DNA of 64,000 bases from an uncultured Alphaproteobacteria bacterium (lineage in GTDB: Bacteria > Pseudomonadota > Alphaproteobacteria > RF32 > CAG-239): contig CALXUP010000003.1 of the NCBI GenBank assembly GCA_944391715.1, positions 1-64,000 on the forward strand, given 5' to 3'. Under the pieces are notes generated by a model. The model was not told the origin of the DNA and did not search any database. It worked only from the letters and a program-made list of their open reading frames with translations. Of this stretch, positions 41,827 to 57,272 are shown piece after piece (the stretch's first letter is position 1; each line of letters begins with the position of its first letter). The position numbers and the translations under genes were made by a program.

Positions 41827-43416
41827 CTAATCATATGTACAACATGAAGGCTGAAAACCACCAAATGACGGACAACATGTACATGTAAAAGTAGGACACG
41901 TATTTTCTGCGCAATCCTGACCATCATAACTAACACAGTCGCGACAGCTTCCATTACTACAAATTTGCCAACTAGAACATTTCGATGATCCGCAAGAAGA
42001 ATAATAGGTAGTACCATTTCTTGTACAGGATTGCGAACCGACATTTTTACACTGTGAAGAACAACTTGAAGCCGTTACTGTATAATTACAACTAGATTTA
42101 CAATTATAGTAACAAGTTTTTCCACAAACGGTAGTTGTTGAACATGTCTGCCCACTGGGCTGTGAAGACTTATACCCCTTACTGGAGCAGGTATCAGTGC
42201 AACTGTCCTTGCAATTATAATAACAAGTTTTTCCGCAGACTGTTGTTGTCGAACAGGTTTGACCACTGGGTTTGGAAGAAGAATACCCCTTGCTTGCACA
42301 AGTATCGGTACAAGTTCCTCCGCCGGAACCGCCGGTATCATCGTCATCATTATTTACCGGAGCAGATTTACAGCTTTTACAAGCGGAACAACACGGGCAA
42401 TAAGACGCGCATCCGTAAGTGCAGCTGACGTGAGACGAGTGTGTACAAACCGGAGCAGATTCGCAAGAGGTACACTTACCGCAGGAGTTGTAAGAAGCAC
42501 AACCGTAAGAACAAGATTTTGAACTTACGGAACAATCCGTATTATATTGGCATTCATAACAACTGGAGCCGCATTCGGTAGAAGAAACCCGAACCTTGTC
42601 TTCGGTCGAAGAACAGGATACGGATTTAGAACCTGTCCGACAGGTATCGGAACAAGCATAACAAGACCCGCATTCGGAAGATCCGACATAAGAACCGGAA
42701 TAATAAGTTTCTCCGGAAGTACAGTCTTTACATCTGTAACAAGGCGTACCGCATTCGGTATATCCGGCCAGAGAGCCGGAATAGTTTTTAGAACCGGAAG
42801 AACAGGTATCGGAACAACAGCGGTAACAGGTATATCCGCAGGCATCGGTACCGGAGGCAGAACCGGTACAGTCAACGCCGTAGTTAGACGGACATCCGGA
42901 AGAGGGAGATGCGGTACAGCATTTACCATAAGAAGAATCCCACGGACAGCGGTTTGAAGTTGCATATAATCGTCCCGGAGAACAGGAGTTGACATAGCCT
43001 TGCTCACGACAAGCTCTCGGCCTGTCTTCCTTACATCCTTTATAATAAGGCTGTCCGTTCGGACATTGTTCATTCACAAAGGAGGGGAGAGAACAGGTTT
43101 GGGTGTTATATCCATTGTTCTTACACCAGGTCGCAGCGTCGCATTTCAGATAATGGTCGTCGCGGGAACAGGTTCCGACTTTGGCATAATATTGCGGACA
43201 TTCGCCGGAAGAATAATAGGTATATCCCTCTTTCTCGCAATACTCCGTGTCTTCATTGACGTTCATATTAAAATCGCCCTGCACGACGTCTTCATCCATA
43301 CAATCGGGCAGAAAGCAAATACCAGCAAAAGCGGAGGATGGGAGAAAGGCCAACAACGCGGTCAGACAAACCGCAGAATTAAGTTTCATGTGTAGCATAG
43401 TATTATAATTTCTCAT
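41827..43416 (-). CDS. Very cysteine-rich secreted repeat protein
   Basis: 529 residues from ATG 43416, which has GGGAGA 6 nt upstream; other in-frame ATGs lie up- and downstream. The signal ends in LLAFLPSSAFA. The mature part is built of Cys-, Ser- and Thr-rich modules (about one residue in six is Cys) with recurring SGSKNYSG, ECGSSCYEC and CASY..C units. Near the C-terminus one unit is tandemly doubled: TDTCASKGYSSSKPSGQTC then STTTVCGKTCYYNCK, repeated with few changes. An acidic NNDDDDTGGSGGG linker precedes it. No known fold is recognised; a disulfide-rich surface or matrix protein is inferred. Confidence 0.7.
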   Translation of the reverse strand: MRNYNTMLHMKLNSAVCLTALLAFLPSSAFAGICFLPDCMDEDVVQGDFNMNVNEDTEYCEKEGYTYYSSGECPQYYAKVGTCSRDDHYLKCDAATWCKNNGYNTQTCSLPSFVNEQCPNGQPYYKGCKEDRPRACREQGYVNSCSPGRLYATSNRCPWDSSYGKCCTASPSSGCPSNYGVDCTGSASGTDACGYTCYRCCSDTCSSGSKNYSGSLAGYTECGTPCYRCKDCTSGETYYSGSYVGSSECGSCYACSDTCRTGSKSVSCSSTEDKVRVSSTECGSSCYECQYNTDCSVSSKSCSYGCASYNSCGKCTSCESAPVCTHSSHVSCTYGCASYCPCCSACKSCKSAPVNNDDDDTGGSGGGTCTDTCASKGYSSSKPSGQTCSTTTVCGKTCYYNCKDSCTDTCSSKGYKSSQPSGQTCSTTTVCGKTCYYNCKSSCNYTVTASSCSSQCKNVGSQSCTRNGTTYYSSCGSSKCSSWQICSNGSCRDCVSYDGQDCAENTCPTFTCTCCPSFGGFQPSCCTYD

Positions 43417-43588
43417 CGGCTTTCTCCCAAGCAAACGTGCTTGACCCGATCGGTTGTCAACATCGTACTCAAGCTTTCGCGTTGCTCTTTTCTTTTTTCC
43501 GAGCAGCATTGTGTTCAGAATGGTTAATAAAAATTCTTTTCTTTTTTGTTGTTCCTTGTACCGTCATCCCCGGTCTTTCTTTTCTTAT

Positions 43589-44549: not shown

Positions 44550-45932
44550 TTAACAATTAGCATGGTTCACGGCCAACCCGCCCAAAGACGTTTCTTTATA
44601 TTTATTGTTCATATCCCGACCGGTATCAAACATTGTCTTAATCACACTGTCCAGTGATACAATATGGTGCCCGTCGCCTTTCATTGCCAGGCGGGCGGCA
44701 TTAACCGCTTTAACCGCACCCATAGCATTGCGCTCGATACACGGCACCTGAACCAGACCGCCGATCGGGTCACAGGTCAGTCCCAGATTATGCTCCATAG
44801 CAATTTCGGCGGCGTTTTCAATCTGCTTGTTGGTTCCACCCATGGCCGCCGCCAGACCGGCCGCCGCCATTGAACAGGCAACACCGACCTCACCCTGGCA
44901 GCCGACTTCCGCCCCGGAAATCGAGGCATTTGTCCGATACAGACTGCAAATAGCCGATGCCGTCAGCAAAAATTTGATAGTTCCCTCTTCCACGCTGTTT
45001 TCCGACTTTTTGCAGGCAATGCGCTCAAAATAACGCATCACGGCAGGAATAATCCCGGCCGAACCCATTGTCGGCGCCGTCACAATCTGCCCGCCGGAAG
45101 CATTTTCCTCCGCCACGGCAAAACCCCAAAGATTAAGCCAATCTATAATCATCAACGGGTCATAATCATTATTCAAAAACTTTTCCTGCAATCGTTTGGC
45201 AATTTCCGGAGCCTTCCTTGGCAGGTTCAGTCCGCCCGGCAAAATTCCTTCCGTCCGCATACCGCGCTCCAGCGATGCCTGCATCACCCTGTCGATTTTT
45301 TCAATCTGCGTCAAAACCTTTTCTCTGCCGAACAAAGCCGTTTCATTGGCCATCACCAGCTCGGCAATACTCAGATTATGCTTGTCGCACAAGGCTATCA
45401 GCTCCGCACAGGTATCAAAATTATAAGGCACGTTATACGGCTCCCGTTCGATTCGACGTTTGACTTCGTCTTTTCGGGCAACCGTACCGCCGCCGACTGA
45501 AAAATACGTTTCTTCCAAAAGCAGACGCCCGTCTTTGTCAAAAGCCCTAAACGTCATACCGTTGGAATGTTCCGGCAAGAAGGTTTGCTTATCAAAAATC
45601 ACATCCCTGTCCAACTCAAAATCTATCGCTTTTTCCTGCGCCAGGTGCAAGATTTTATCCCTTTGCACCGCCACGACATAAGGCTTTTCCGGATCAATCG
45701 CTTCGGCCTCCAGCGCCATCAGACCATAAATAATGGCCTTAACCGTTCCGTGCCCTTCCCCGGTCAGCGCCAAAGAACCGTACAGTGTTGTCTCCACCCG
45801 GCTGACCTTGCCGAAAACCTCATTGGCTTTCAGATTCTCAACATATCTTTTGGCGGCGCGCATCGGGCCGACGGTATGTGAACTCGACGGGCCGACCCCA
45901 ATCGAGAAAATCTCAAAAAAGCTGTAATACAT
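44550..45932 (-). CDS. sdaA: L-serine ammonia-lyase, iron-sulfur type
   Basis: 460 residues, the single-chain proteobacterial form with beta and alpha domains. Deaminates L-serine to pyruvate. [22 protein letters not shown] opens the beta domain; in the alpha domain the cluster cysteines are in [17 protein letters not shown] and [19 protein letters not shown]. It precedes a terminator. Upstream lie a peptidase and a MEMO-like gene on the same strand with short gaps, so a longer transcript is possible. Confidence 0.95.
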
Positions 45933-45940
45933 TCAGTCCT

Positions 45941-47656
45941 CTAAAAAAACATCTTGATATCTTTATACGGTTTTACCCCGAGTTCGGCATGAACCGCGGC
46001 AATTTTCTGCGAAACCTCGCTCCAGTTGCTGTAACGGTCAATAAATTCCTTCGCCTTTTGCGGAGACATGGAAAGCTGAACCGCTACCGTATCCTCAAGC
46101 AATTGATTCATCACCACGGGAAAACGTTCAAAATCTATATGCAGTTTCATATCTTCGTCAAATGAAATCGCTTTATTTTCCAACAGATAATTCAGCTCAA
46201 TCAGCTCCGCCACCCGGTGCGGCAGGGAAAGCTGCGGTTTAGCCTTGCCAAACAGGCGATAGACCACATGCGTTACATAAATCTTCTTCAGCGTTTCGGC
46301 ATCAATCACGCCGGATTTGACATATTCCGGCATAAAAGCAATGGAAACCACATCGGCTTTATGCTCCTCAATAATATGCTTATACTGCCCCAAAGCGGTT
46401 TGATACCTGCTGTCCGGCCCCAAAGAATGTCCGTTTTCGTGCCCGATGACAAACAGATGATCCGTTTCGGGGTCAAAATACTTATGCAGCTCCGGAGCAA
46501 CCAACCTTTCCAGCAGTTTCTTATTTTTTTCCTTATCCACACTCATCCTGACCTGACGGTGATATACGTTCCGCCGCCCGCCTCCGGTTTTAATCGCCAG
46601 CTTGTCATTATTCGGCAGATTTTGTGCCGTCGTAATCCCGCCGCGGCATTGGGCATAATCCCCGGTCAGCGCGGCCAAATCCACGTCTACCATTGTCTGC
46701 TTAATATCGTCGCTTTTGTTGATATTTTGCTCATAACGATCGGCAAACGGCATCTTTTTCGCCAGTTCCTTCATCTGGTCTTTGAACTTCAGCAAAAGTT
46801 CCGTCCCCGCTTTATTAACGATTCCGACGCGGATTCCGAGCATATCTTTGGAATTGACTTCAATATTATGTTTGTTGATAAGCGCCATCAGCTCTTCATT
46901 TTCAAATACGCTCGGCGTAATGGCATCATCATAGCACTCCCGCCCGAGGGTAAACTCCAGAGCACTGCCCTGCAAAACCGCCCAATGCTTGTCGGCCAGC
47001 ATATCCATATCCTCGTTATTCTGAATCAGAGCCTGAGCCTGCCAGCCGAGGAAATCCTTAAAAGCCTCGTCTGTTGTATAATGTGCCGCCACTTCCAGCT
47101 CATTGGCAATGGCCGAAAAGGCTTTGGCAAAATATTCCGTATAATCTATCGCTTTCAGCTCGGAACCGTTCCGACGCACCATCGTCCGCGCGCTCAAAAT
47201 CTTTCGGACCTCGTCAGCCTTTCCGTCTTCCAGCATTTTTTTGATAATTGTATGAAATTCCGCCACCGTCAAATCTGTCGGATAAAAATTACGCCCGGGC
47301 AGTCCGGAAATCCCTTTAAATATCTCCACCGGTTTGGCATCAATGCCGTTCAGCCCTTCCACACCGTTTAATGAACGAAACAGCCGCAGAGCCTTTGCGG
47401 CATAAGAGCTGGTTGTAGCCGCCTCTTCCAAAGCCTTCCGCTGAGCAATATTCATATGGTGATCTTGTTCCTGAGAAACCTCATTCATAATCTTTGCCGC
47501 CGCAACCAGGTGTCTCAAAGCCTTCTGGTCGCCTTCCGGCAAAGCTTTGTAGCCTTCAAAATTTTCATCAATCAAAACAACCGGCAGCATCTGCTCGTTC
47601 AGCATCTTGTCCAATTCGGCTTCGCTGTAAGCAATTTCGTAACCGTTAATTTCCAT
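45941..47656 (-). CDS. Zinc metallopeptidase, M49 (dipeptidyl-peptidase III)-like
   Basis: 571 residues, no signal peptide. The zinc site reads VIGHENGHSLG (around residue 402-412; H-E-x-x-H) with the third ligand in IIEEHKADVVSI about 25-30 residues later (E-E-x-x-A-D), the layout of M49 enzymes. Most M49 members have six residues (HExxGH); a five-residue version is known from bacterial relatives. Expected activity: removal of dipeptides from short peptides in the cytosol. The start overlaps the stop of the MEMO-AMMECR1 gene by 11 nt, so the two are translated together. Confidence 0.75.
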   Translation of the reverse strand: MEINGYEIAYSEAELDKMLNEQMLPVVLIDENFEGYKALPEGDQKALRHLVAAAKIMNEVSQEQDHHMNIAQRKALEEAATTSSYAAKALRLFRSLNGVEGLNGIDAKPVEIFKGISGLPGRNFYPTDLTVAEFHTIIKKMLEDGKADEVRKILSARTMVRRNGSELKAIDYTEYFAKAFSAIANELEVAAHYTTDEAFKDFLGWQAQALIQNNEDMDMLADKHWAVLQGSALEFTLGRECYDDAITPSVFENEELMALINKHNIEVNSKDMLGIRVGIVNKAGTELLLKFKDQMKELAKKMPFADRYEQNINKSDDIKQTMVDVDLAALTGDYAQCRGGITTAQNLPNNDKLAIKTGGGRRNVYHRQVRMSVDKEKNKKLLERLVAPELHKYFDPETDHLFVIGHENGHSLGPDSRYQTALGQYKHIIEEHKADVVSIAFMPEYVKSGVIDAETLKKIYVTHVVYRLFGKAKPQLSLPHRVAELIELNYLLENKAISFDEDMKLHIDFERFPVVMNQLLEDTVAVQLSMSPQKAKEFIDRYSNWSEVSQKIAAVHAELGVKPYKDIKMFF

Positions 47657-49205
47657 TTTTCTTAATCTCCACTGTTCTAAAACGATAAGCTTTCAATTTA
47701 TCAGACCAATAAGTCGGGCTCATGCCGGCCTTTAGTTTCAACTGGGTCAAAAACTCTCTTTTATCGGAAAACTCCTGCCACATGGAAGGCAAAAACAGCC
47801 CCTGCCGATTGCCGTCGCGCAGAACGATTCCGTCAATACCGGGTTTCATAACCGCCAACAATCCTTCTTCATCTTTAAAATCCAAACGTTCATAATCCGT
47901 CAAAAATGTAATCCTGATTTCCAAATCCGCCAGTTCTTCCGGTTTTACGCTGTCAAAACGCACATCTTCCGAAGCCGCCGCCCGAACATGCTGCGCCACC
48001 TCAAGAGCAGCAGCCTGTTTGGCGCGCAAACTCCCGGATTCGCCCCTCATCGTTCCATGATTATACAGGCTGACAAACACCGCCGCCTTGTCAAACAATC
48101 TTTCCGGATATTCCCCGCGAGACGGTTTGTATTTTTTATGCCCGTTCAGCCATTCCGCCAAACTTTTATCGGCAATTTCAGTCAGAGCCGCACCATACTG
48201 CTGAACATAAAGACCAATGCTTTTTGCTTCCCGTTCAATCAGTGTCGGAAGCTCGTCTTTTTCCTCCTCTTTCTTTTCGCTCAGCCAAAGATCATATTTC
48301 CAGCTGGCTCTGATTTCTTCTTCCTGCCCGTCATTGGCATAACCGTCAATCAGCTGGGAAGACATCCGCATCTGCTTGGCATAATGCAGAGCCGTCTCAA
48401 TCCCGGCATCACCGCACGGCCGGCCGTCAGATACCGGAAGCGCTTCAAATCTTTTCTCTCCGTCTGCTTTTTTCTGCCGGTCATAATAGGTTGACAAATC
48501 AGCAAAGAAAATCAACAGCGTCGCATCGTCATACAAATATTGCTCTAAACCCGCCGACAGTTCCTGAGACGTGGCAGAACCATAAATAACCGGCACCACC
48601 GAAAAATGCGGATTAATCTTTTGCAAAAAGAATAAATGTTTTTTCCAATATTCCCGTCCGGCAAACGCCTGATTTCCCGCTTTCCAGCCGTTCGAGAACA
48701 TTCCCTGCACAATCTTTTCGTTAACGGCAATATTGCTGCCGGCAGAAAGCTTTATATTATCAAAAAGCGGCAGCCAGATCCCGGCCGTTTTTTCATCGCA
48801 AGCCGGAATCAGCATAATCACATTTCTAAACTTCTTTCCGGACTGAGCAAGTTCCCAATAAGCCTTTGCCGTAACCGTCGCTGAATATTTATAACCTTCC
48901 TGCGGCACAATCAAAATTTTCGGAAATTTGTTCTGCCTCTTATATCCGGAGCCGAAATAATAACCGGTATCCAATCCGGCATCCTGCGCTTTTTCCAGAT
49001 AAAACCAGCTGGCGACTGCAGGAAGTTCATATTTCTCAAGCTCATCATACTGCGGCACATAATTATTCACCTTCTCGGCATTAGACGACAAATGGGCATA
49101 TAAAAAATCATAATTCAGCCACAAAAGCGCCGCCGCGGCAACACTCCAGAAAATATAATAAAATGCCCCGTGTTTTTTTACGTCTTCGTCCTTGTCAATA
49201 TTCAT
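47646..49205 (-). CDS. Membrane-anchored MEMO-like / AMMECR1 fusion protein with altered metal site
   Basis: 519 residues from ATG 49205 (SD GGGAAAG); a GTG at 49211 is an alternative. One N-terminal membrane segment (YYIFWSVAAAALLWLNYDFL). Residues ~95-300 resemble MEMO1: IVPQEGYKYSATVTAKAYWEL, IMLIPACDEKTAGIW, LIFFADLSTYY, PCGDAGIETAL. In usual MEMO these read PHAGY, GPxH and SDLSHY; here the three His are Q, C and T, while the Cys is kept. Residues ~330-515 are AMMECR1-like: GLYVQQYG, FVSLYNHGTMRGESGSL, DLEIRITFLTDYERLDF, GLFLPSMWQEF and YRFRTVEI. MEMO-AMMECR1-radical-SAM sets are known in bacteria and archaea; no radical SAM gene is seen here. Confidence 0.75.
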   Translation of the reverse strand: MNIDKDEDVKKHGAFYYIFWSVAAAALLWLNYDFLYAHLSSNAEKVNNYVPQYDELEKYELPAVASWFYLEKAQDAGLDTGYYFGSGYKRQNKFPKILIVPQEGYKYSATVTAKAYWELAQSGKKFRNVIMLIPACDEKTAGIWLPLFDNIKLSAGSNIAVNEKIVQGMFSNGWKAGNQAFAGREYWKKHLFFLQKINPHFSVVPVIYGSATSQELSAGLEQYLYDDATLLIFFADLSTYYDRQKKADGEKRFEALPVSDGRPCGDAGIETALHYAKQMRMSSQLIDGYANDGQEEEIRASWKYDLWLSEKKEEEKDELPTLIEREAKSIGLYVQQYGAALTEIADKSLAEWLNGHKKYKPSRGEYPERLFDKAAVFVSLYNHGTMRGESGSLRAKQAAALEVAQHVRAAASEDVRFDSVKPEELADLEIRITFLTDYERLDFKDEEGLLAVMKPGIDGIVLRDGNRQGLFLPSMWQEFSDKREFLTQLKLKAGMSPTYWSDKLKAYRFRTVEIKKNGN

Positions 49206-49271
49206 CTGCACAACTTTCCCGCCAAAAATCCGTCTTGCCGGATATTAAAGCATACCGGACTTAAAATTTTG

Positions 49272-49964
49272 CTAATTTTTACCGGTCAAAGCCGCATAAA
49301 AGTGCACAAAATCATCAAAATACCTGATCTCGTCCGGAAGCAGGGTTTCCGTCTGCCAGATATCTTCGCCGATTCTGACCGGCAGGGCATGAGCCGACCG
49401 GGCACAATCGCTGTCTTGCGGACTATCGCCGACCATCCAGACCAGCTCCGGCGAAATCTCCTGCGGAGCAAGATATCCGTCAAGAGCATAATAAAGATGT
49501 TCGGGATAAGGCTTGTCGCGTTTTGCCTCATGTCCGCAAACAACTTTCTCAAACATCTCCGGCTCAAACAAAAGCGGCAGTTCATAATCCAGCAACCGGC
49601 GGTCTTTATTGCTCATAATCATAATTTTAACCTGCCGGGACAACAAATAATCCAACACCTCCCGCACCCCGTCAAAGGTCGAAATCATCCCGGCAACGTT
49701 TTGCAAATAAACTTCGGCATAACGGGCATAAATTTCTTCTGCCCGGCTGCCGAAAAGATTGGGAAAATTGTCCCGGAAAGAAAGGCTGTTATCCCTCTTT
49801 TTACAAACTTCTTCCCAGCAGGGCAGCCCTTTTTCCGCCAGCACCTGTTGAATGGCATAAAGCAGCACGGGACGGCTTTTAGCCAGCGTATTGTCCCAGT
49901 CAAAAACCACAAAACGAACATTCCCGAGCGGCAGCGGTTTATTTCTCATCTCAAAATTTTCCAT
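49272..49964 (-). CDS. HAD-family phosphatase (phosphoglycolate phosphatase-like)
   Basis: 230 residues from ATG 49964 with GGGAGAG upstream; a start 15 codons earlier is less likely. Motif I VVFDWDNTLAKSRP (D-x-D), motif II IMIMSNKDR, the Lys in EAKRDKPYPEHL, and motif III VWMVGDSPQDSDCARSA make a complete HAD enzyme. Substrate unknown; phosphoglycolate or nucleotide monophosphate are typical in this group. Confidence 0.85.
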   Translation of the reverse strand: MENFEMRNKPLPLGNVRFVVFDWDNTLAKSRPVLLYAIQQVLAEKGLPCWEEVCKKRDNSLSFRDNFPNLFGSRAEEIYARYAEVYLQNVAGMISTFDGVREVLDYLLSRQVKIMIMSNKDRRLLDYELPLLFEPEMFEKVVCGHEAKRDKPYPEHLYYALDGYLAPQEISPELVWMVGDSPQDSDCARSAHALPVRIGEDIWQTETLLPDEIRYFDDFVHFYAALTGKN

Positions 49965-50016
49965 ATGTTGTTTCTCTCCCGGAAGTAATTGGTTTTTGCG
50001 TTTTTTCAAGATAACA

Positions 50017-50065: not shown

Positions 50066-51346
50066 CTATCTCTTTTTCATCACTTTCATTCCGCCCATAT
50101 AAGGCTGCAGCTTTGCCGGAATATTGACCGAACCATCGGCATTCTGATGATTTTCCAGCAGCGGAACCAAAATGCGCGGCGTGGCGACACCGGTATTGTT
50201 CAGCGTATGCACAAACTTGACCTTGCCGTCAGCATTATCGCGATAACGCAAATTCGTCCGGCGGGCCTGCCAATCGGTAATGTTTGAACAGCTGTGCGTT
50301 TCGCGATAGCAGTTTTGCGTCGGAACCCAAGCCTCCAAATCATATTGGCGATACTTCGGCGCACCCATATCCCCGGTACAAACTTCCAAGACCTGATACG
50401 GCAGTTCCAAATCCTGCAAAACTTCTTCCGAAATGGCCAACAGTTTCTGGTGCCATTTTTCGCTCTCGTTAATATCGTTTTTGCAAATAACAAACTGCTC
50501 GGTCTTCATAAACTGGTGAACCCTGGTCAGTCCGCGGGTATCTTTTCCGGCAGCCCCGGCCTCGCGGCGAAAGCAGGGAGAAAAGCCGGCATACAAAATC
50601 GGCAGTTCGTTTTCAGTCAAAATCTCATCCGCCCGCAGCGAGTTCAAAATCAACTCGGCCGTTCCGGACAAATAAATATCATCTGCCGGCATATAATAAA
50701 TCTCATCGCGCGAAAAAGGCAGATACCCTTGCCCGTAAAGCGGACGCTCTTTGGAAATTGAAGGAACGGTAATAACGGTAAAACCGTTGGCCGAAAGCTT
50801 GTCAAGAACCATCATATGGATTGCCAGCTCCATCTTGGCCAAATCGTTCTTAATCGCATAAGTGCGCGCGCCGGAAACTTTTGCGATTCGCTCCATCTCG
50901 CTCCAGTCGTTAAGCTCCATCAGCTCAACATGGTCACGGGGCTTAAAGTCAAACTTTCTCGGCTCACCGACTTTACGGCGGACGACATTGCCGGAATCAT
51001 CCGGGCCGACCGGGCTTTGCGGGCTCGGCATATTCGGCATTCTGAGCATAATCTCGTCAAACTTGGCTTTAACGGCATCAAGCTCTTCCAACTCTTTTTT
51101 AAGTTCATCGCCAATCTCGCGGCTTTTGGCAATAATAGCCGGACGCTCTTCGGCTGATGCGGATTTAATGGCATTACTGAGTTTGTTTTTCTCTTCTGAT
51201 TTTGCCTGGGAAGAAGTCTTGAGCTTGTTCATCTCAAGATACAGCTTTTCCAGCTCGTCCAGGCTGATGGTCTTGCCATAGCCCTTTTTATCAAGCCCTT
51301 CCTGAATAAGCGGCTTGTTTTCAATAATGTATTTTATATCCAACAT
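50066..51346 (-). CDS. serS: Seryl-tRNA synthetase
   Basis: 426 residues, normal bacterial length. N-terminal coiled-coil arm (residues 25-105), then the class II core: FTVITVPSI, LILNSLRADEIL, motif 2 FSPCFRREAGAAGKDTRGLTRVHQF, EVCTGDMGAPKYRQYDLEAWVP and motif 3 LNNTGVATPRILVPLLENHQ. Confidence 0.97.
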   Translation of the reverse strand: MLDIKYIIENKPLIQEGLDKKGYGKTISLDELEKLYLEMNKLKTSSQAKSEEKNKLSNAIKSASAEERPAIIAKSREIGDELKKELEELDAVKAKFDEIMLRMPNMPSPQSPVGPDDSGNVVRRKVGEPRKFDFKPRDHVELMELNDWSEMERIAKVSGARTYAIKNDLAKMELAIHMMVLDKLSANGFTVITVPSISKERPLYGQGYLPFSRDEIYYMPADDIYLSGTAELILNSLRADEILTENELPILYAGFSPCFRREAGAAGKDTRGLTRVHQFMKTEQFVICKNDINESEKWHQKLLAISEEVLQDLELPYQVLEVCTGDMGAPKYRQYDLEAWVPTQNCYRETHSCSNITDWQARRTNLRYRDNADGKVKFVHTLNNTGVATPRILVPLLENHQNADGSVNIPAKLQPYMGGMKVMKKR

Positions 51347-54437: not shown

Positions 54438-57272
54438 TTAGAACGGATCGTTGTATTTCAGGGTCGGATCGTTCAAACGGTTAACATATCCGCTTTCCTT
54501 GCTGTCATAACCGACTCTGACCTTGGTCAGCTGATCATAGCGGTCGACCAAATCGTCATTGGTAAAATCGCCTTTTTCCGCCCGCCGGTTAAAATAGCAA
54601 TAAACATTTGAAATACCTACAATCTGCCTGTTCCAGACTTCAAACAGATTCCAAATAACGTCATCATCCGCCCAGCTGGAACCCAACCCGATTTCATTGG
54701 CATAAGTCTGATAGTCCCTTGCCGGATACAGGAAACCGATTGCCGCATTCCAGCCGTAAGACGTACCGCCGCTGTCTTTGACCGAAACAAAAGACGTATT
54801 CAGCCAGGTACTCTTCTGGAAAGTCAAAGCCTTTTTATAGCCCTCATAAGTATCCCAGGAATCCGATTCCGGCCACAACAGCGAATTCGGGTCACGGTTA
54901 ATCTGCAATTCAACTTCATTATTGGCGCCGTTGGTTTTCTCAACCGGGTGTCCGGCCTGAGCCATGGCCCAGCTAATCGGGCTCAGCGTTGCCACTTTCA
55001 AATATCCCGGCGGACAAGTCGGCGCCGGCACAAAACCGAGCCACGGACTGGTCTCGCACTTAAACGTTGAGGTCGGACAGCTCTTAACAAAGCTCTGCGT
55101 TGCAATCACGCCCGACCCAAACAACGAAGACGTATTGAGCGGGAAAGAAGAGGAATCCTCTGGTTGCCCATCTCCTTTCATCAGCCAGTTCAAACTATCA
55201 GCGCCGGCCGTACAATTCTTGGTTGCGCAGTAAGTACCGTCCAACACATAAATACCCTTATTGATAAAGTCAGGCAGAATATCGCTCAGACGGGCACCGC
55301 CGCGCGTTACCAGCTTAATATCGTGCATAACGGAAGTATAAGCCGGATTAACCTGATATTCGTCATACAACTCTTTTCCGGAACTTGCACGATAATTCTG
55401 CTGATAAGCCGACATATCCAACGCCACATTGCTCAGCATTCTGTCCACTTTGATGTAGCTGTTTGAGTCGCTGTGGTCCGAAGACGCATCCGTATTCCGG
55501 GCGATTTCAATGGCGCCTTTGCGAACATAAATGCTGGCATCCGGTTTGGTTCCGTCGGTATAATTGGTATCAATGGCAAAAATCTTGTCTCCTGCTGCCG
55601 AAGAAGCAATAAAGTTTGCATCGTTCATCACTTTGACTTCCTTGGCCTCAGGATCGACTTCAAAAATTGTCGAATCATTCTTGTCATTAACCTCAAACGT
55701 GGCATTATTAACCTCAACTACCGGGGTCGTGCCGCTCTCACTGTCCACAACCAAAGTGCCCGTTCCGTCACCGACGGCAAAATGCGGCGTATCGGCATAA
55801 ACCTCATCGGCCTTCATCTTAATCAATTCGTCCGTAACGTCAAAACCGCCTGTTCCGTCCGGATCGCCGACCGTAAAGTTGTTAACCAGAATAGACACGC
55901 TGTCCGGATCTGCCCAGAAGTTATACTGATTCTCGGCACAGGTATTATCCGGATTCCGTTGCGTACAACCGGCTCGCAACAAATTATTAACGTCCAGGTC
56001 TTCCATATCGACCGGTTTATCAAATTGAACCTCATCTCTAAAACGTGCCGGCCCGTTCACATCCAAAATAAAATAGGGATCATAATCGTCAGGCATTTTG
56101 CCAATAACAACCTGCTGCTGCAGATGAGAAGTTCCCTCAACCACCAAATCTTTCAGCTTGGTATCGCCTGTTACCGTCAGATTATTAAGGTTTGTATCTC
56201 CGGTAACCGTCAAATTGGCATTGATTGTCGTATTTCCGCCCGCATCAACTTCAAACTTGCCGCCGCCGGCTGTCAGGCTGCCGGTAATCTCCGCACTTCC
56301 GGCCTTCAGCCAGTCTTTAATTTCGGCCGTCAGTGCCTCCAAATGCCCGCCTATCGTCGCATCGCCGTCAATTGTCGCACTTCCGCCGACATCAATGTCT
56401 CCGCCGATATTGGCATTTCCTGTTTCAATCGTCAAACCGGCACCGTCCGTCAGCAAAATCGCCTGATCCTTGTCATTGGCGGCCTTACCGTTAACAATCA
56501 TCTGTCCGACGTCTTCAATACCGTTATCATCCATATAAAGCGTCGTTTCCATCGTATTCAGCCAGGGTTCTTCTTCCATTCTCACACGGTGCAAAACGTT
56601 TTCACCGCTGCTGCTGCCGCTGGCAATCGCCCGGATGGACGTGGCCACAATGGTATTTTCCTTCAGCTTGGAAGCGTCCAAATCAAAATCGCCCGGATTA
56701 TCAATGCTCCACACACCCTGAACACCCTGAATTTTCTTATTTCTGACAAAACCGGCGTTGGTACCGATCATTGAAGCAATACGCGACGCCCGCAAAATCG
56801 GCATTTCTTGCGTCTCAGCCGGCGTAGTAACCAAAAGCCCGGTCAAATCGGAACGATCACCGGTACCAAAATCACGTTTTTTAACTCTGACCTCAAGATT
56901 CTTAAACGTTTTTGAGCTGGCATTAAAACCGTACGGCAGATATTCGCAGAAATGTTCTATCGGAACGGTCTGAACTCCGCCGGGAAAGTTATAAGTAACA
57001 CTACTGCTTGAACCGGAACAGTTGGACGTAACGGTTCTGGAACCGTCTCCCAACCCGACAATGGTGTTATAATTATCGGCCAAATAGGTATCGATGGCAT
57101 CCATGGCAATACGAATTTGCCCGGCCGCGTTAATGTCTTGCAGCTCGGTTGTTCTTTCCGCCGATTTCTTATAAAGCATCGGGGTAACCATCGCAATCAG
57201 CCCCAGCATGGCCATTGCCTCAATCAACAGGCTTCCTGCCTGTGATTTTTTATCGTCAAAAACCCGAACCAT
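54438..57272 (-). CDS. PilV-like large minor pilin / shufflon-type adhesin
   Basis: 944 residues. The N-terminus MVRVFDDKKSQAG-SLLIEAMAMLGLIAMVTPMLY is a prepilin signal: charged leader, Gly at -1, Glu at +5, then a hydrophobic helix. A pilin-like head follows (AGQIRIAMDAIDTYLADNY). Residues ~250-400 contain beta-solenoid-like repeats (NINGDIDVGG, TIDGDATIGGH, NLTVTGDTNL, NLTVTGDTKL). The C-terminal ~250 residues hold several Cys (DGTYCATKNCTAG, KSCPTSTFKCETS) and resemble the shufflon PilV tail. It may be the tip adhesin of a type IVb pilus; no other pilus gene is near except the small one upstream. Good SD (AAGGAG). Confidence 0.7.
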   Translation of the reverse strand: MVRVFDDKKSQAGSLLIEAMAMLGLIAMVTPMLYKKSAERTTELQDINAAGQIRIAMDAIDTYLADNYNTIVGLGDGSRTVTSNCSGSSSSVTYNFPGGVQTVPIEHFCEYLPYGFNASSKTFKNLEVRVKKRDFGTGDRSDLTGLLVTTPAETQEMPILRASRIASMIGTNAGFVRNKKIQGVQGVWSIDNPGDFDLDASKLKENTIVATSIRAIASGSSSGENVLHRVRMEEEPWLNTMETTLYMDDNGIEDVGQMIVNGKAANDKDQAILLTDGAGLTIETGNANIGGDIDVGGSATIDGDATIGGHLEALTAEIKDWLKAGSAEITGSLTAGGGKFEVDAGGNTTINANLTVTGDTNLNNLTVTGDTKLKDLVVEGTSHLQQQVVIGKMPDDYDPYFILDVNGPARFRDEVQFDKPVDMEDLDVNNLLRAGCTQRNPDNTCAENQYNFWADPDSVSILVNNFTVGDPDGTGGFDVTDELIKMKADEVYADTPHFAVGDGTGTLVVDSESGTTPVVEVNNATFEVNDKNDSTIFEVDPEAKEVKVMNDANFIASSAAGDKIFAIDTNYTDGTKPDASIYVRKGAIEIARNTDASSDHSDSNSYIKVDRMLSNVALDMSAYQQNYRASSGKELYDEYQVNPAYTSVMHDIKLVTRGGARLSDILPDFINKGIYVLDGTYCATKNCTAGADSLNWLMKGDGQPEDSSSFPLNTSSLFGSGVIATQSFVKSCPTSTFKCETSPWLGFVPAPTCPPGYLKVATLSPISWAMAQAGHPVEKTNGANNEVELQINRDPNSLLWPESDSWDTYEGYKKALTFQKSTWLNTSFVSVKDSGGTSYGWNAAIGFLYPARDYQTYANEIGLGSSWADDDVIWNLFEVWNRQIVGISNVYCYFNRRAEKGDFTNDDLVDRYDQLTKVRVGYDSKESGYVNRLNDPTLKYNDPF

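Follow-up and report, generated by a model that had tools for sequence, protein, structure and literature searches.

Gene pair and domain composition

The window analysed here, i.e., the whole stretch of 64,000 nt (positions 1 to 64,000 of contig CALXUP010000003.1, assembly GCA_944391715.1, from an uncultured Alphaproteobacteria bacterium), carries on its reverse strand two overlapping genes, referred to below as P1 and P2. P1 encodes a membrane-anchored fusion of MEMO and AMMECR1 domains, both of which have lost their characteristic sites, and P2 encodes a homologue of dipeptidyl-peptidase III (DPP III, family M49). The main features of the pair are listed below; residues of P1 are cited in P0001 numbering.

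47646–49205, minus strand: P1, membrane-anchored MEMO-AMMECR1 fusion with the metal site and the AMMECR1 cysteine lost (profiles, reading frame)
49101–49169, minus strand: single N-terminal transmembrane helix of P1, about residues 15–37 (hydropathy; helix 9–41 in the model)
48336–49022, minus strand: MEMO domain of P1, residues 64–292 (Pfam; fold, Z 14.8 to 7kq8)
47670–48179, minus strand: AMMECR1 domain of P1, residues 345–514 (Pfam, 116 bits; fold, Z 20.8 to 1vaj)
47646–47656, minus strand: overlap of the P1 stop and the P2 start, 11 nt (reading frames)
45941–47656, minus strand: P2, DPP III/M49-fold zinc-peptidase homologue of 571 amino acids (aa) without a signal peptide (phmmer, profile, model)
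46427–46441, minus strand: HENGH zinc motif of P2, the pentapeptide HExxH form of M49 (sequence)
46352–46369, minus strand: EEHKAD of P2, the second M49 zinc-ligand motif (sequence, alignment, profile)

P1 comprises 519 aa from the ATG at 49205, and its stop codon lies at 47646–47648. An alternative start, the GTG at 49211 (521 aa), is the first codon in the mechanical open reading frame list; the ATG was preferred because the closest homologues begin at its position. Profile searches revealed matches of P1 to Memo (PF01875; 33.0 bits, residues 64–246, Pfam cut-off 27) and AMMECR1 (PF01871; 116 bits, cut-off 25), as well as to the NCBIfam models AmmeMemoSam_B (TIGR04336; 53.3 bits, cut-off 26) and AmmeMemoSam_A (TIGR04335; 148.5 bits, cut-off 99). 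The structure model of P1 has a MEMO/class III extradiol dioxygenase fold, matching Fe-bound MEMO1 (7kq8) over 189 residues with a root-mean-square deviation (rmsd) of 3.2, and LigB-type dioxygenases with Z of 9–10. Its C-terminal half matches archaeal AMMECR1 (1vaj) over 187 residues with an rmsd of 1.9. Confidence in the model is low at residues 250–263 and 291–321, in the MEMO C-terminal region. No signal-peptidase-like site was seen at the N-terminal helix. The initial annotation of this DNA had thus correctly described a membrane-anchored MEMO-AMMECR1 fusion that overlaps a gene for an M49-like zinc-peptidase homologue by 11 nt.

As for P2, a single-sequence phmmer search matched it to DPP III of Caldithrix abyssi (6eom; E-value, 1.4e-28), and its profile matched 6eom and 5zum with E-values of 2.3e-43 and 2.4e-21, respectively. 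The P2 model (predicted local distance difference test score, 91.6) displays the two-lobed DPP III fold, with Z of 36.4 to 6eom and 25.8 to the human enzyme (3t6b). Together, HENGH and EEHKAD make up the M49 pair of zinc motifs, HExx(G)H plus EExxA[DE]; among 107 aligned P2 sequences, 104 have HENGH, and the other three have HENAH. The score of P2 against Pfam M49 is below the gathering threshold (19 vs. 21 bits), the pentapeptide-type relatives 6eom and 5zum being closer to it. These two experimentally studied DPP III enzymes both carry pentapeptide zinc motifs like HENGH. The Fe/pterin-dependent PolE enzymes have the DPP III core fold as well (Z of about 15 to the P2 model). As judged from the model, this likeness is a caution against taking every M49 fold for a peptidase.

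Replacement of the MEMO and AMMECR1 sites

The iron ligands of MEMO1 are H49, H81, and C244, and a single H49A or C244S change abolishes iron binding (PMC11081632). The LRGCIG motif of AMMECR1 is stated to have stayed identical throughout evolution (PMC5502304). The corresponding sites of the window P1 are as follows, with MEMO positions given in human MEMO1 numbering.

48891–48905, minus strand: PQEGY, canonical PHAGY; H49 replaced by Q104 (VPQEGY) (alignment)
48798–48809, minus strand: IPAC, canonical GPSH; H81 replaced by C138 (alignment)
48636–48656, minus strand: REYWKKH, canonical EHSLEVQ; H131 replaced by E (alignment)
48486–48503, minus strand: ADLSTY, canonical ADLSHY; H192 replaced by T241 (FADLSTY), D189 kept (alignment)
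48411–48419, minus strand: PCG; C244 ligand position retained as C266 (alignment)
48033–48050, minus strand: MRGESG, canonical AMMECR1 signature LRGCIG; cysteine replaced by glutamate (alignment; signature in PMC5502304)

Thus, the three iron-ligand positions are occupied by Q, C, and C, and the LRGCIG signature is absent. The alignment bears out the changes noticed in the initial annotation (PHAGY to PQEGY, GPxH to IPAC, SDLSHY to ADLSTY, with the cysteine kept). The histidines are indeed gone, and so is that of the H131 position (EHS to REY); the decay also reaches beyond the MEMO part, to the previously unnoticed LRGCIG.

The 63 homologues in which all sites are kept align unambiguously with the window P1, most of them at about 34–42% identity. 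The possibility that the histidines had merely shifted was checked by this alignment and ruled out. The only new histidine nearby, that of REYWKKH, falls in the column of the EHSLEVQ glutamine (window 48636–48638), which is a histidine in the window clade, G160, G027, and most of genus g3, and is already so in the canonical G034 and G036, beside intact EHS/EHG. By the alignment, a histidine in this column is an accepted alternative and no shifted ligand, and the metal-site histidines of the window P1 are replaced. Chance or a frameshift artefact was likewise ruled out, as the site changes are common to four species.

Joint loss of both sites

Five MEMO residues (H49, H81, H131, H192, and C244) and the AMMECR1 cysteine were scored in 106 tree members. 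Both sites are intact in 62 of them, both are lost in 43, and one is discordant; H49, H81, and C244 are all kept together with the AMMECR1 cysteine in 63 of the 106. The losses were counted on the P2 tree, which is independent of the scored P1 columns. The intact/lost label needs eight changes on this tree, and again eight (bootstrap, 8–9) on a careful P2 tree without long rows; at least seven of the changes are forced by well-supported branches. In independent pairs, the two traits change together in 7–8 of 8 cases (sign test, p 0.008–0.016). The changes are read as losses because deep branches include intact members and every outside relative is intact. The MEMO pocket and the AMMECR1 cysteine have therefore been lost jointly at least seven to eight separate times.

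In seven sequences (G013, G113, G115, G118, G119, G087, and G088), the three Fe ligands are kept and H131, H192, and the AMMECR1 cysteine are gone, so it is H131 and H192, rather than the Fe ligands, that track the AMMECR1 cysteine best. The joint loss suggests a single activity for which both the MEMO pocket and the LRGCIG cysteine are used. Both sites would also disappear if constraint on P1 as a whole were generally relaxed; this is countered by scaffold residues conserved at or near 100% in full-length sequences that have lost the sites.

Selection on P1 and retained residues

Ratios of non-synonymous to synonymous substitution rates (dN/dS) were calculated pairwise for the window and its three closest relatives. 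In this clade, the ratio is 0.08–0.13 for P1 and 0.10–0.22 for its MEMO part, as compared with 0.03 for the MEMO domain of an intact pair and 0.04–0.06 for P2; the values are rough, several dS values being near or above 1, i.e., close to saturation. By these estimates, the window P1 is still under purifying selection, more loosely so in MEMO, and pseudogene status is ruled out. In full-length losers, the membrane-proximal N33 and N44 are conserved at 100%, as are D460, G461, G467, R469, P475, W478, F487, L491, K492, G496, P499, W502, F511, and E515 of the AMMECR1 C-terminal part.

Pairing of P1 and P2 and gene neighborhood

Three neighbors of the pair recur in relatives.

44550–45932, minus strand: L-serine dehydratase, downstream neighbor, often conserved (Pfam; gene order)
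49272–50009, minus strand: HAD hydrolase, upstream neighbor, usually conserved (Pfam; gene order)
50066–51346, minus strand: seryl-tRNA synthetase, upstream of the HAD gene in most relatives (Pfam; gene order)

The recurrent gene order is therefore seryl-tRNA synthetase, HAD hydrolase, P1, P2, serine dehydratase. The named matches are metagenome-derived Alphaproteobacteria, many of them from animal guts, including Azospirillum sp. CAG:239. P1 was detected by profile in 127 of 152 genomes of the window's family, and P2 in 143 of 153 genomes of the order (107 of 109 among those of good quality). At every one of the 108 family loci that were read in detail, P2 starts where a P1 frame ends; within the family, the two genes were never found apart. 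The overlap measures 11 nt at 93 of these loci, 4 nt at nine, and 13–20 nt at five, the last sizes depending on the inferred P2 start. In the window, a Shine-Dalgarno-like GGAG of P2 sits within P1. At one of the 108 loci (G014), P2 lies in two frames. Outside the order, P2 was found in one of some 380 further genomes of the class (G054), with no P1 beside it, and G033, from the same order, likewise has P2 without an adjoining P1. The pair is fixed within the family, and each gene occurs alone outside it.

Ancestral form and the radical SAM partner

A profile search of the window genome (97% complete) for the radical SAM protein TIGR04337 was negative, in agreement with the initial annotation. 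Across the family, TIGR04337 exceeds its cut-off in 13 of 152 genomes, all from genus g3. In this genus, the membrane P1 is a short, decayed form, and some genomes carry a separate LigB-AMMECR1 fusion; it looks as if a cytosolic system had replaced the membrane P1 there. None of the 62 intact-site genomes has the TIGR04337 gene. Among the first relatives read, fifteen, including G002 and G004 of the window's own genus, have an intact MEMO site and the anchor, as well as the peptidase neighbor where the contig reaches it; LRGCIG or LRGCVG is present in all of the fifteen with a complete frame. Since intact-site relatives share them, the anchor, the fusion, the peptidase coupling, and the absence of a radical SAM gene precede the decay.

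The fusion, which the initial annotation had taken for a special feature, turned out to be ordinary in Alphaproteobacteria, where it normally lies head-to-head with a radical SAM gene or is fused to it. By this comparison, the MEMO-AMMECR1 fusion is old; the anchor, the peptidase coupling, and the radical SAM loss define the family, and site loss came later and repeatedly. Two causes of site loss were ruled out: loss of the radical SAM gene, which is missing from the 62 intact genomes and has its 13 carriers in g3, where P1 is decayed, and coupling to the peptidase, as intact-site relatives are coupled as well.

Two further arrangements were observed. One is an 875-aa single frame (G036, L057:4242-6869) that unites radical SAM (TIGR04337), MEMO, and AMMECR1 with all sites intact, so that the entire AmmeMemoRadiSam system is fused in one protein. 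The other is unlinked LigB (PF02900)-AMMECR1 fusions with an intact LRGCIG (L061:4129-5514 and L062:4727-6130; G008 and G019, genera g3 and g14).

Location of P1 and P2

No signal peptide was found on P2 at any of 71 loci. For P1, simple counting of K/R was uninformative, and the net-charge difference across the helix gave a trend: the N-terminus is placed inside, with the C-terminus outside, at 75 loci, outside at 13, and 18 are neutral, the signal being weak or ambiguous in the window's own genus. By this charge bias, the P1 domains are probably periplasmic. If so, they cannot complex directly with P2. A P1–P2 complex, which the initial annotation had suggested predicting, is thus doubtful, because P2 lacks a signal peptide and the bias places the P1 domains outside. 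If P1 is periplasmic, a shared pathway, with peptide capture outside, dipeptide release inside, and serine deamination downstream, would be the simplest link between the two.

In G035 (L059:6626-8095), a MEMO-AMMECR1 fusion with intact sites has an N-terminus resembling a signal peptide (FIGNAEAV), so export of a protein of this type has a parallel. Elsewhere in this genome (L060) lies another MEMO and AMMECR1 pair, of cytosolic type.

Comparison with known systems

Memo families have reportedly been compared above all by Burroughs et al. 2019 (JBC), and the AmmeMemoRadiSam system (A, TIGR04335; B, TIGR04336; radical SAM, TIGR04337) apparently receives only passing mentions in the literature searched. 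P1 resembles this system in exceeding the curated cut-offs of A and B, and other Alphaproteobacteria have such fusions next to or fused with radical SAM. Unlike it, the window genome and the intact-site relatives are without the radical SAM protein, P1 has a transmembrane anchor and a fixed DPP III-homologue partner, and the window P1 has lost the metal site and LRGCIG. With human MEMO1 (3bcz, 7kq8), P1 shares the fold and the C244 and D189 positions, whereas H49, H81, H131, and H192 are replaced. Its C-terminal half has the fold of AMMECR1 (human; archaeal 1vaj, 1zq7, and 1wsc) and differs in MRGESG, the cysteine and the D-x-R-F region being variable among losers. P2 shares the fold over about 510 residues and the HExxH and EExxAD motifs with bacterial pentapeptide-motif DPP III (Caldithrix abyssi 6eom, Corallococcus 5zum); unlike these, it is coupled to a MEMO-AMMECR1 gene, is about 21–25% identical to them, and is known here from sequence and model. 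The components are known, and their arrangement is new and specific to the family. The literature on divergent Memo proteins was checked in part, and an earlier mention of inactive membrane forms is possible.

Interpretation

The reading that we favor, with modest confidence, is that P1 is a pseudoenzyme derived from a membrane-anchored, radical-SAM-independent MEMO-AMMECR1 enzyme whose two sites shared one activity, and that a non-catalytic role has been kept beside P2. In the ancestor, which would have acted without a radical SAM partner, the MEMO pocket (H49, H81, H131, H192, and C244) and the LRGCIG cysteine would have provided one shared activity; the window clade would have abandoned it, and hence both sites. 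A second, non-catalytic job would have been retained under selection, with P1 serving as an inner-membrane-tethered binding or structural protein that probably faces the periplasm. Translational coupling would fix the ratio of P1 to the cytosolic, DPP III-like P2, a putative peptidase; to judge from the grouping of a DPP III homologue and a serine dehydratase in one operon, both proteins probably serve peptide or amino-acid uptake and breakdown. The initial annotation had proposed that the MEMO part is now a binding domain; purifying selection on P1 is in keeping with a binding or structural role that has persisted, and what the proposal left aside is that the AMMECR1 site decays with it.

Several observations weigh against the pseudoenzyme reading. 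The discordant sequence, G086, lacks the MEMO residues and keeps the AMMECR1 cysteine. Short forms of P1 (350–430 aa) have lost most of MEMO, and that of G019 is a 184-aa remnant in which MEMO is mostly and AMMECR1 entirely gone, with the overlap with P2 still present; in such forms, the retained role may be little beyond anchor or coupling. The near-saturation of dS in some comparisons and the charge signal, ambiguous in the window's genus, also count against it.

A more specific proposal, to our mind somewhat likelier to be wrong than right, is that the MEMO pocket and LRGCIG formed a composite active site, or catalyzed two steps of one reaction, with no need for a radical SAM protein. In this family, the enzyme would be a membrane-bound, probably periplasmic version with a link to dipeptide metabolism; of at least seven natural lines that lost the function, the window clade would be one, its protein surviving with a second, non-enzymatic function.

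Alternatively, following the initial annotation, P1 might bind P2 and recruit the peptidase to the inner membrane face, the decayed MEMO pocket acting as a docking or peptide-presenting surface. Universal adjacency and the 11-nt coupling favor such recruitment, and the vestigial pocket of MEMO1 is reported to bind a phosphopeptide (Qiu et al. 2008). However, the family charge bias (75 vs. 13) and the signal-less P2 suggest that the two are on different sides of the membrane, and P2 is conserved to the same degree beside an intact P1, a decayed one, and the 184-aa remnant, which makes recruitment rather unlikely. That the P1 protein has no role in losers, its frame being kept only since its translation enables that of P2, is unlikely as well: the overlap survives even at the G019 remnant and P2 is near-universal while P1 degenerates, but dN/dS of P1 near 0.1 in the window clade, the invariant AMMECR1 C-terminal residues, and the fact that both P1 folds are still confidently modelled in part all argue for a function of the protein itself.

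We find it quite improbable that the pocket was remodelled for a new activity or another metal using C138 and C266. The two thiols at ligand positions, found in the window sequence, G001, G005, and G006, and the continuing purifying selection would agree with remodelling; other losers, however, have Y, N, P, A, S, or Q there, with no common new motif, and model confidence is low in the MEMO C-terminal region. Finally, it is very unlikely that P2 is another enzyme on the M49 fold and the operon not peptide-related, since, despite the PolE core fold and the Pfam score just under the cut-off, the DPP III enzymes 6eom and 5zum, which share its type of zinc motif, are its closest structures by far (Z 36, >500 residues).

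Other genes in the window

A 944-aa protein (54438–57272, minus strand) has a pilin-like N-terminus (GSLLIEAMAMLGLIAMVTPML) and a long repetitive body without a Pfam match; its sequence suggests a PilV-type minor pilin or adhesin. A protein of 560 aa (41827–43509, minus strand), repetitive and rich in cysteine, contains a hydrophobic stretch resembling a signal and likewise has no Pfam match.

Significance

MEMO and AMMECR1 are conserved from bacteria to humans. The molecular function of both has been described as unknown (PMC11081632, PMC5502304), as has the reaction of MEMO1, if any (PMC11081632), and a mutation within LRGCIG of AMMECR1 causes human disease (PMC5502304). So far, the two have been linked by gene neighborhood; the seven to eight joint losses tie their sites at residue level and indicate that both can be kept without the radical SAM partner. 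Because some related species have the intact version and others the decayed one at this locus, they form ready-made pairs in which to look for the reaction.

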